From NCBI GenBank assembly GCA_947479905.1, contig CANKBJ010000020.1:1-34631 (forward strand): 34,631 nucleotides of DNA. The letters run 5' to 3'. Below, piece after piece: positions 16,324 to 18,300 of this stretch (position 1 is its first letter; the number at the start of each line of letters is the position of its first letter). The notes below the pieces were generated by a model. It searched no databases and was not told the DNA's origin. It saw nothing but the letters and a program-made list of their open reading frames with translations. The translations under genes were made by a program, and so were the position numbers. Source of the stretch: Bradyrhizobiaceae bacterium (GTDB lineage: Bacteria; Pseudomonadota; Alphaproteobacteria; Rhizobiales; Xanthobacteraceae).

Positions 16324-16671
16324 ATGGATGACGGCACCGCCCAGCACGAGATCGTTCGCCTGGAAGCGCGGATCGAGGCGCTGACCGAGCAACTGGCGCG
16401 CTGCGCCAAGATTTCCCTCGCTTCGAAAATCGCCATCGGCGTCGGCGCATTGTGGTTTCTCCTCGCGCTGATCGGCATCTTGCGGCTCGATGTCACCGCC
16501 TTCACCGGTACCGTCGCCGCTATGCTCGGTGGGGTCGTGCTGCTCGGCTCGAATGCCACGACCTGGGACCAGACCGACGCGGCCTTGCGCGAAGCGGAAG
16601 CCGCGCGCGCGGCGTTGATCGGGACAATGCGGTTGCGCGTGGTGGGCGACGAGGCAAGGACGTTGCATTGA
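16324..16671 (+). CDS. small membrane protein with N-terminal coiled coil
   Basis: A 115-residue protein. Residues 5-28 form a helical, probably coiled-coil stretch (AQHEIVRLEARIEALTEQLARC). Two hydrophobic helices follow at about 36-57 and 64-80 (SKIAIGVGALWFLLALIGIL; TAFTGTVAAMLGGVVLLGSN), then a charged C-terminal helix. Both ends are likely cytoplasmic. The start at 16324 (MDDGTAQ) is preferred to the in-frame ATG at 16306, but ribosome-site support for either is thin. No function is recognised. A strong palindrome starts 8 bp after the stop and may end the transcript. Confidence 0.6.
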   Translation: MDDGTAQHEIVRLEARIEALTEQLARCAKISLASKIAIGVGALWFLLALIGILRLDVTAFTGTVAAMLGGVVLLGSNATTWDQTDAALREAEAARAALIGTMRLRVVGDEARTLH

Positions 16672-16678
16672 ATACCGA

Positions 16679-16743
16679 TGTCGTCCCCGCCATAGGCGGC
16701 GCGAAGCGACGCCGTCCTTCGGACGGCTATGGCGGGGACGACA
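16679..16743. repeat. intergenic palindrome, cruciform type
   Basis: Perfect 17-bp arms (TGTCGTCCCCGCCATAG and its complement, 16679-16695 and 16727-16743) enclose a second hairpin GCCGTCC-TTC-GGACGGC. The outer sequence GTCGTCCCCGC is shared with the palindromes at 25891, 30443 and 32027. It probably acts as a transcript end for both flanks. Confidence 0.85.
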
Positions 16744-16819
16744 GTTGAGCGCAGACGCGATTCATCGCCCGTATTCTTTACCGGCCCCGGGCAGGCCGTC
16801 GCTTGATCTCGCATCCTCT

Positions 16820-17279
16820 TTGCGTCCTCTAAGAACGAGGGCGCGCGGAACGCCGGGGTCGCAACAACCCCGTAGCCTCGTGAGATGTGTTGAGTTAGTT
16901 CTCACGAGCAAGTCACCACGCAGTTGCCGGAATTCCCGGCGCTCCGCGCGCGATGTTTATAGGTTTGCTCCGCTTGACCCCCGGTGGACTGACCTTTTCA
17001 GGCTCCCTCTTGCTTTAGGGACACCTATCCACCGCTGCGGGGTTTCCGTCCGGGCGGGGTGCCTGTCTCCGCTTCAAACCTTTCGGGACTTGAAGCTTCA
17101 ACCGCAGTTTCCGCACGGATTTCCGCCCCAGTGGCGCGCGGCAGGCGCGCCGGGACCAAGCGGCTTGGACCGCTGGTGAAGTCGTTGCGCCGCATCTCCG
17201 ACGCCTCCACCAGCCACCGCTTCCCGCCCCAGCATCTGACGACGCTGATCAAACGCCCCTCGGTAGATGAGGCGGGATA
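16820..17279 (-). ncRNA. candidate large structured non-coding RNA
   Basis: No convincing protein is encoded in 16.75-17.5 kb on either strand: frames overlap one another, are rich in Arg/Ser/Pro and show no domain. The minus strand has a near-consensus promoter (separate entry), and predicted stems start right after it: CCCGCCTC with GGGGCGGG (17276-17269 / 17230-17223), AGCGG hairpin (17174-17159), GGCGCGC hairpin (17151-17133), TTGAAGC/GCTTCAA hairpin (17096-17071), a 17-bp long-range stem with one mismatch (16951-16935 / 16857-16841), and inside it a perfect 9-bp CTCGTGAGA hairpin (16908-16877). I do not recognise it as tmRNA, RNase P, SRP or 6S RNA. The 3' end is an estimate, since no U-tract was found. 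Confidence 0.45.
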
Positions 17280-17285
17280 AGATTG

Positions 17286-17314
17286 TATATAGTCCTAGGG
17301 ATTTAAACAGTCAA
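17286..17314 (-). promoter_or_regulatory. sigma-70 promoter reading into the structured region
   Basis: On the minus strand, TTGACT (17314-17309), a 17-base spacer, then TATATA (17291-17286). Spacing is optimal and both boxes differ little from consensus. The predicted start is near 17279, just at the first stem of the candidate RNA. Confidence 0.6.
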
Positions 17315-17356
17315 GAGGGATTTTGACTAATAACCCTTCGCCAATCCGCCCGCTTC

Positions 17357-17437
17357 GTAGGGTGGCGCTGAGCGAAGCGAAGCCCACCACCTTGGCCAAT
17401 GGTGGGCTCGGCGCAAACGCGCCTTAGCCCACCCTAC
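17357..17437. repeat. 81-bp palindromic repeat
   Basis: Outer arms GTAGGGTGG / CCACCCTAC (17357-17365, 17429-17437) enclose an inner hairpin AGCCCACCA / TGGTGGGCT (17381-17389, 17400-17408). This 'GTAGGGTGG...CCACCCTAC' design resembles dispersed intergenic repeats known from many proteobacterial genomes. It lies 65 bp upstream of the APH-like gene. Confidence 0.8.
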
Positions 17438-17502
17438 AAAACTGTCGTGCCGGGCGAGCGTGCGAAAGTACGGCGACGACAGATACCCGCTATGGTGCCG
17501 CC

Positions 17503-18300
17503 ATGAATGTCTCCGCCGAAGCCCTCGCCCGCGAATTGCTGATGAAACACGACGGCGCCGGCGCGGGCGCCATCGCGCTGCGGCGGGTGACGACCGGCAT
17601 GAGCGACGCCGCCGTGTTCCGCGCCAGGCAAAAGGGCCGCGTGCCGCGCTATGTGAAGGTGGCGTTCGACGCCGCCGCCATCGCCTTGCGCGAGGAAATC
17701 GCGCGCACGCAATGGCTGTCCAAGCGCGGCATCGCCGTGCCGCCTGTGCTGCGGGTCGCGGATCGCGACGACGGCACGGCGGTGCTGATGGCGGCCATCG
17801 CCGGCGTTCCCGCCGACGTCAGCACGCTTGCGACAGCGCGGCTGATCGCGGCGCTGGCGCAAGCCGTCAAAGCCTTGCACGCGCTACCGCCGGCCAATTG
17901 CCCGTTCGACGAAACGCTCGCCGCGCGGCTCAACCGGGCGCAAGCCGCCATCGACGCCGGCGAAATCGACCCGGCCGAGTTCGAGCCACACAACCGGGAC
18001 ACAGCGCCCGCCGACCTGCTGCGGCGCCTGCGCGCCGCGCCGCCGCATGAAAACCCGACCGTCGTGCATGGCGACCTGACGCTCGGCAATATCATCGTCG
18101 ATGACAACGGCGCATGCGGCTTTATCGACTGCGGCAATGCCGGCCGCGCCGACCGCTATACCGATCTGGCGCTGCTGCATGCCGACATCGTCGCGCATCG
18201 GGGGGAGAAGGCCGGCGCGGAGTTCCTCGCCGCCTGCGGCATCACGCATTGGGACGCGGCCAAGGCGCAGTATTTCCTCGACCTCTATGAGCTTTTTTAA
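17503..18300 (+). CDS. aminoglycoside 3'-phosphotransferase-like kinase
   Basis: A 265-residue protein of the APH family, with the length and layout of APH(3') enzymes. The N-lobe carries 'TTGMSDAAVFRARQKGRVPRYVKVAF', with the ATP-binding lysine in YVKV. The C-lobe has the Brenner motif VVHGDLTLGNIIVDD with the catalytic Asp in HGD and the metal-binding Asn. It is followed by GFIDCGNAGRADRYTDLALL, whose Asp-x-Gly replaces the kinase DFG; the last motif is nearly word for word that of APH(3'). It could inactivate kanamycin-type drugs by ATP-dependent phosphorylation. Chromosomal, high-GC copies without mobile elements nearby often have other or silent roles, so resistance is inference. The start is the ATG at 17503; no clear ribosome site was seen. 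Confidence 0.8.
   Translation: MNVSAEALARELLMKHDGAGAGAIALRRVTTGMSDAAVFRARQKGRVPRYVKVAFDAAAIALREEIARTQWLSKRGIAVPPVLRVADRDDGTAVLMAAIAGVPADVSTLATARLIAALAQAVKALHALPPANCPFDETLAARLNRAQAAIDAGEIDPAEFEPHNRDTAPADLLRRLRAAPPHENPTVVHGDLTLGNIIVDDNGACGFIDCGNAGRADRYTDLALLHADIVAHRGEKAGAEFLAACGITHWDAAKAQYFLDLYELF

Follow-up and report, generated by a model that had tools for sequence, protein, structure and literature searches.

What is kept in several hundred bases of a bacterial genome that fold into many stems and hold no convincing gene? The window, i.e., the whole stretch of 34,631 nucleotides analysed from a Bradyrhizobiaceae bacterium (contig CANKBJ010000020.1), contains such a region, for which the original prediction proposed a large structured RNA on the minus strand. 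The explanation that we hold with slightly more confidence than doubt is a multicopy family of large noncoding RNA genes, with their own promoters, a conserved chassis, and a transcript acting in trans. The prediction of a large structured RNA is supported by conserved and covarying helices, a promoter at a near-fixed distance, the lack of a coding signal and the lack of an Rfam family. The multicopy nature of the element, its spread over an order and its 3' end are what the earlier reader missed.

The RNA part of the window copy has a length of about 540 nt (Table 1), with the 3' boundary at about 16741 set by homology between copies. A structured RNA was rightly proposed, while the proposed length of about 460 bases proved too short. 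The minus strand of 16815-17280 folds with -239 kcal/mol against -193.2 ± 5.6 kcal/mol for 100 dinucleotide shuffles (z = -8.2). The long-range stem of 17 pairs described earlier is present in the minimum-energy fold, and the 9-pair hairpin CUCGUGAGA/UCUCACGAG that it was said to close is nested within it. Likewise, the first stem, P1, does begin no more than a few bases from where the transcript is expected to start. The 3' tail is the least certain part. A loose pattern for the window-type tail was non-specific (106 occurrences within 220 nt of the core, 261 elsewhere), and another tail type, found in other genera, followed the core in 47 of 56 distinct occurrences.

Table 1. Features of the window copy (positions of the window; alignments A2, A3 and A4 and model R2 are described in the text)
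Feature	Position	Strand	Basis
Structured RNA element	16741..17282	-	A2 alignment row L001:1452-1993:- beside 38 other near full-length copies; limits by BLAST against 76 loci
-35 hexamer TTGACT	17309..17314	-	Promoter scan
-10 hexamer TATATA, spacer 17	17286..17291	-	Promoter scan
5' hairpin P1, with inner hairpin P2 (17232-17256)	17223..17276	-	Covariation across genera in A4
Hairpin P3 GCUGGUG...CACCAGC, inner GCGUCG/CGGCGC	17172..17214	-	RNAalifold on A2: columns 69-79 with 108-116, 81-86 with 93-98
Hypervariable arm	17050..17125	-	A2 columns about 165-355
Helix GGUGGA/UCCACC (other genera GGAGG/CCUCC instead)	16979..17036	-	Pattern counts
3' core, source of model R2	16837..16973	-	A3 alignment
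Core helix H1 (14 pairs), 5' strand	16938..16951	-	Partner 16841-16854; A3 pairing test
Core helix H1, 3' strand	16841..16854	-	Partner 16938-16951; A3 pairing test
Apical 9-pair hairpin	16877..16908	-	Minimum-energy fold; helix 2 of A3 pairing test
3' tail with short G+C-rich hairpin	16741..16836	-	A2 alignment, RNAalifold

Comparison between copies was based on several alignments. A1 and A2 comprise 39 of the 40 copies judged full length among 76 loci, L023 being left out as it lies at the same place as L070. A3 covers the 3' core. Its 53 sequences come from the own genus, from g18 (a genus of the same family) and from other genera, and were drawn from 56 cores hand-picked among 123 pattern-matching loci (L073, L160 and L103 left out). 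A4 covers the 5' hairpin in 50 of 66 extracted sequences; L005 and L070 had been mis-extracted, 14 were removed for redundancy, and L006 is absent. RNAalifold on A2 predicted 96 pairs, of which 32 have at least one change on both sides, and its covariation term amounted to only -8.3 of -131 kcal/mol over the 813 columns. In the A3 core, 93.4% of the cells are paired against 83.0 ± 0.5% after shuffling and at most 57.1% after sliding, and 156 cells are changed on both sides against 55.5 in shuffles, these controls ignoring relatedness. Helix H1 is 99.3% paired in A3, and three of its pairs are doubly changed in 17 sequences each. Two of the five measures on A3, the numbers of doubly changed pairs and of pair types, were not clearly above the shuffles (52 and 130 of 500 reached them). 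The 5' hairpin in A4 is 90.3% paired against 83.8%, with 53 double-change cells against 19.3, in shuffles that again ignore relatedness; its outermost pair is weak, being unpaired in 22 of the 50 sequences. The helix next to the core occurs as GGUGG/CCACC 73 times against 13 for the GGAGG/CCUCC of other genera, and 24 other combinations include clear pattern mis-hits. The relatives in other families, read by eye, have their parts in the same order; the arm that links the 5' domain to the core could not be aligned across the family. Secondary structure with compensatory changes is therefore conserved, as for large structured noncoding RNAs.

The same alignments bear on whether the region encodes a protein. 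Open reading frames of more than 60 aa do overlap it (e.g., 16745-17179 on the plus strand, 144 aa, and 17025-17252 on the minus strand, 75 aa), and in some copies stop-free runs extend up to the whole element. The earlier statement that no plausible protein is present thus holds for the absence of a kept frame and fails for the absence of overlapping frames. The substitution rate is flat over the codon phases (0.305/0.305/0.292), 463 among 560 indels have lengths not divisible by three, the median copy stays in the frame of the window copy over 40% of positions, and whole-element open frames are at chance (3 of 39 copies vs 5% of shuffled sequences). The flat phases, the indel sizes and the unkept frame rule out a protein-coding gene. 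Homologues that keep a frame over the stems, named earlier as an outcome that would speak against the RNA, did not appear in the codon-phase, indel or pairing tests. With the fold at z = -8.2, the covariation in A3 and A4 and no frame kept, we give practically no credence to a protein-coding gene or to a chance fold of G+C-rich DNA.

A minus-strand promoter was also rightly recognized, with TTGACT and TATATA 17 bases apart ahead of the element. Of the 39 own-genus copies, 37 have a TTGAC/TATA-like promoter with a score of 9 or more out of 12, against 3.8% of shuffled upstream sequences scanned in the same manner, and the -10 box ends 5-7 bases ahead of the first base conserved in the RNA. The DNA between and upstream of the hexamers diverges while the hexamers persist. 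As the promoter is held at a near-fixed distance within diverging sequence, function rather than DNA seems to be kept. Copies of other genera reach 9 of 12 in 13 of 20 cases (one of the 20 from g18) against 3% of shuffles, at 5-8 bases. The element is thus predicted to be transcribed from its own sigma-70-type promoter. Since the own-genus upstream DNA is unconserved beyond the promoter, while promoter and fold are kept, the transcript would be the product under selection. In the own genus, the word CCTAGG or CTAGG recurs, by eye, in the spacer or immediately ahead of the promoter hexamers, where it could serve as an operator.

The copies of g18 form a separate case. Their upstream region is conserved and hardly scores as sigma-70 (mean 7.2 vs 6.5 shuffled), so that a sigma-70 promoter is unsupported by score, although 17 of 20 copies have AAAAATAT upstream. 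Two blocks, CAAAAATATT and GCAAATCA, unlike the sigma-70 consensus, recur with similar spacing about 20-70 bases upstream of these copies (L166-L185, L096-L105). Another promoter may be used in g18, or the upstream blocks may just reflect recent common descent.

The check by BLAST for a dispersed repeat, suggested along with the original prediction, found the element to be one, in its own genome and in relatives. With 16790-17340 as query, the own genome gave 21 matches on 16 contigs, some of which are pieces of one copy. Among 40 genomes, 16 were matched, namely the own genome and 15 of the 23 further members of its genus, and at the nucleotide level none of the 16 genomes of other genera in the set was. 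A copy of g18 used as query matched 31 of 31 g18 genomes. The unit varies from 454 to 609 nt across copies, which makes a family of roughly 450-600 nt, and the flanks of the copies are unrelated except at a few shared sites. Model R1, built on the 5' domain, matched 32 of the 43 genus genomes (22 of the 28 rated good), 50 of 248 genomes of the family in 16 of 47 genera, and 2 of 297 genomes of the order. The own-genus genome G004 had a single R1 match. The 11 of 43 genus genomes with no R1 match include 6 of the 28 good ones, and the strict filters may miss weak matches. Model R2, built on the 3' core, matched 33 of 397 genomes of the order, including families f35, f14, f3 and, weakly, f20, and 3 of 385 genomes of the class. 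The third class-level match is a 270-contig draft genome of another order with 5% contamination (G1002, good matches L345 and L348), and its matches outside the order may be due to contamination or transfer. All these distribution counts are lower bounds because few candidates were scored per genome and the filters were strict.

True-strand R2 matches above 60 bits numbered 54 in the complete genome G258, 45 in G577, 17 in G403, 11 each in G627 and G638, 10 in G003, 5 in G372, 3 in G327 and 1 in G171, whereas G277 and G076 had two weak matches each, below 40 bits. Opposite-strand matches near 28-44 bits were left out as shadows of the palindromic core, and weaker true-strand matches were omitted from the counts (e.g., one of 33 bits in G258, four in G627, two in G638). 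Both the 5' and the 3' model found 9 of the 11 loci in the one-contig genome G003, and the other 2 are partial copies. Some own-genus copies lie at contig ends (e.g., L030, L035); the family thus probably breaks assemblies, which would make the counts in draft genomes too low.

Such a distribution could also be that of a selfish non-autonomous mobile element, similar to a SINE or MITE of bacteria, that is spread by an enzyme in trans and whose fold serves its own movement. The dozens of dispersed copies in some genomes, the partial copies at 2 of the 11 G003 loci and the genomes with no match would be expected from it, and many copies per genome are part of the definition of the 'mobile/repeat sequence candidate' category (PMC11109978). 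This explanation is a serious rival since some genomes have no copy and sites come and go. However, the DNA ends, which a transposase usually needs in conserved form, look unconserved, the own-genus upstream region keeping little beyond the hexamers. Copies made by retrotransposition of the transcript would land without a promoter, whereas nearly all own-genus copies have one. Nearly all aligned copies retain the structure and the promoter, in a set where decayed copies are under-represented because copies were chosen as near full length. Searches with the window copy in phages and plasmids, with one g18 copy in plasmids and with two exact patterns in IMG/VR gave no match, which tells against the selfish element and against a phage, plasmid or viral origin. 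On balance, a selfish element is possible and clearly the less probable of the two, and we favour the trans-acting RNA gene family over it.

The intergenic site of the window copy illustrates gain and loss. At the orthologous site the element is present in G055, and in G058, G012 and G053 it is present in interrupted form, divided between contigs or truncated where a contig ends. The site is empty in G023, G011, G005 and G013, with 23 to 200 bp of other sequence instead, so that occupancy of this one orthologous site varies between relatives. Same-site presence and absence in close relatives suits the selfish element. Other sites are common on both flanks, such as L006/L009/L012, L014/L045 and L015/L060; the shared-flank list also pairs L039 with L042 within G000 and links several copies through a single flank. 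Identity between the elements of a same-site pair was 71-84% over six such pairs. It was below that of the matched flanks in four of them and within the flank range in two (L006/L009, L014/L045), and hence overall element identity alone is not decisive. The nearest relatives of a copy change segment by segment, and this mosaicism fits an exchange of segments between copies.

The position of copies along the chromosome was followed in G258 alone. There, GC skew and the count of the octamer GGGNAGGG, which we take to be the FtsK motif, switch sign at 3.77-3.91 Mb and, less sharply, around 6.9-0.6 Mb. With two copies beside the origin left out, 38 of the remaining 52 point in the direction of replication. 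This differs from an even split with a two-sided p = 0.0012, and exceeds the 53.8% of coding bases that were on the leading strand in 18 samples with a one-sided p = 0.0035. The proportion is 37/51 without the copy in the terminus interval, 35/47 without five doubtful copies and 39/54 for all. A simple ORF finder was applied to the surroundings of 20 of the 54 copies, and in two of the 20 an ORF overlay the span assumed for the element. Convergent genes enclose 10 of these copies and divergent genes 1, while 9 are in tandem contexts, and the next downstream gene is opposed in 16. No recurrent neighbour gene was found beside these 20 copies (7 homologous pairs among 137 neighbour proteins), which argues against the selfish element, while a bias towards gene ends and replication direction is also shown by tolerated insertions and would suit it.

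The convergent contexts, with only 1 divergent, and the replication orientation in G258 would suit a cis-acting device at gene ends, i.e., an insulator, terminator or nucleoid-contact site that is transcribed and lies where two genes converge, with a role like that of REP-derived RNAs. A promoter and an elaborate structure of about 540 nt exceed what a terminator needs, the 9 tandem contexts do not suit it, and the window copy, judged by its ORFs, is not between convergent genes. Such a device is therefore unlikely.

The trans-acting RNA gene family is favoured by the covariation, the promoter placement, the missing coding signal, the G003 loci found with both models, the replication orientation and opposed downstream genes in G258, and the mosaicism. 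Against it count the genus genomes with no match, the empty orthologous sites, the low g18 promoter score, the lack of a recurrent neighbour gene, the small covariation term of RNAalifold, the two A3 measures near shuffled level and the weak outermost pair in A4. With this family as the preferred explanation, we infer the following course. Each copy would be transcribed from its own sigma-70-type promoter into a conserved chassis made up of a 5' hairpin domain, a long-range helix bearing the hypervariable arm, the core helix of 14 pairs with two hairpins inside it, and a 3' tail. The object of selection would be the transcript and not the DNA, most likely as the RNA part of a ribonucleoprotein that acts in trans, and its dosage would be set by copy number. 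Copies would be made and mixed by recombination between them (gene conversion) together with occasional intergenic insertion. The RNA looks dispensable given the genus genomes with no match and a copy number ranging from 1 to 54. A further elaboration would be a combinatorial RNA system of dozens of paralogues per chromosome, in which a constant chassis binds a protein or acts as a catalyst, an exchangeable arm determines the partner of each copy, and concerted evolution as in rRNA keeps the set together. The hypervariable arm would be its exchangeable part; most aligned G003 copies share nearly the same arm, so that arms are not private to copies, and we consider this system improbable.

Is the family already known under another name? 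Rfam 15 covers introns, RNase P, tmRNA, 6S, HEARO, OLE, GOLLD and ROOL. The claim that no known class could be assigned agrees with the Rfam 15 search, which gave no match at the gathering threshold for the whole window and none at E ≤ 1 for 16600-17600; a hit to a known Rfam family, also named earlier as an outcome that would speak against the prediction, thus did not appear. Six relative loci gave 9 Rfam matches, all to microRNA families and far under their gathering scores. A group II intron, RNase P and HEARO, suggested by words such as GGAGCAAG, are ruled out as no Rfam model matched, and no tRNA or tmRNA was found in the window. OLE, GOLLD and ROOL occur in one or few copies per genome, in contrast to the 1 to 54 copies of the present family in the genomes counted and its lack of an Rfam match. 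As far as their available descriptions go, they resemble it in being noncoding, several hundred nt long and of elaborate conserved structure; the function of OLE is unclear in published abstracts.

Structured RNA can also arise out of a repetitive intergenic element, as do the naRNA4-type RNAs of E. coli REP325, which differ from the present family in size, promoter and phylogenetic breadth. The available text on REP repeats of GTAG and CGTC type (20-40 bp; PMC3733652) and on Br-REP1 and Br-REP2 of Bradyrhizobium (short palindromes in 3' UTRs; PMC5082802) describes elements that, like the present family, are dispersed, often intergenic, palindromic and found in related bacteria. The present unit differs from both in its promoter and its length of about 540 nt, and a REP/BIME, which in the definition given there is a 20-40 bp palindrome with a GTAG or CGTC tag (PMC3733652), is ruled out by this length. 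BjsR1-BjsR10 are small RNAs of Bradyrhizobium japonicum, some in 2 to 4 imperfect genome copies, and are set apart, as there described, by at most 4 copies against up to 54 here (PMC5082802). The open-licence literature, to which the search was confined, gave no description of the present RNA family. Set against that literature and Rfam 15, we regard the family as new, both in its RNA and in the way it is maintained, namely large, individually promoted, dispersed and high in copy number.

If transcribed, the family would add a substantial and so far uncatalogued RNA component to Bradyrhizobium-like bacteria and their relatives in soil, with up to 54 genes of about 550 nt per chromosome in the genomes counted, and it would extend over several families of one order. 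Structured RNAs of such size are often machines or scaffolds, and we know of no other large structured RNA that exists as a dispersed, high-copy gene family with individual promoters. Public RNA-seq data of laboratory rhizobia could test the family directly, including whether the small proteins predicted there are spurious.

By eye, REP-like palindromes lie on either side of the window element (16680-16745 and 17357-17440); compared with the repeats in the available text of PMC3733652, one resembles the CGTC type (TGTCGTCCCC...) and one the GTAG type (GTAGGGTGG...).
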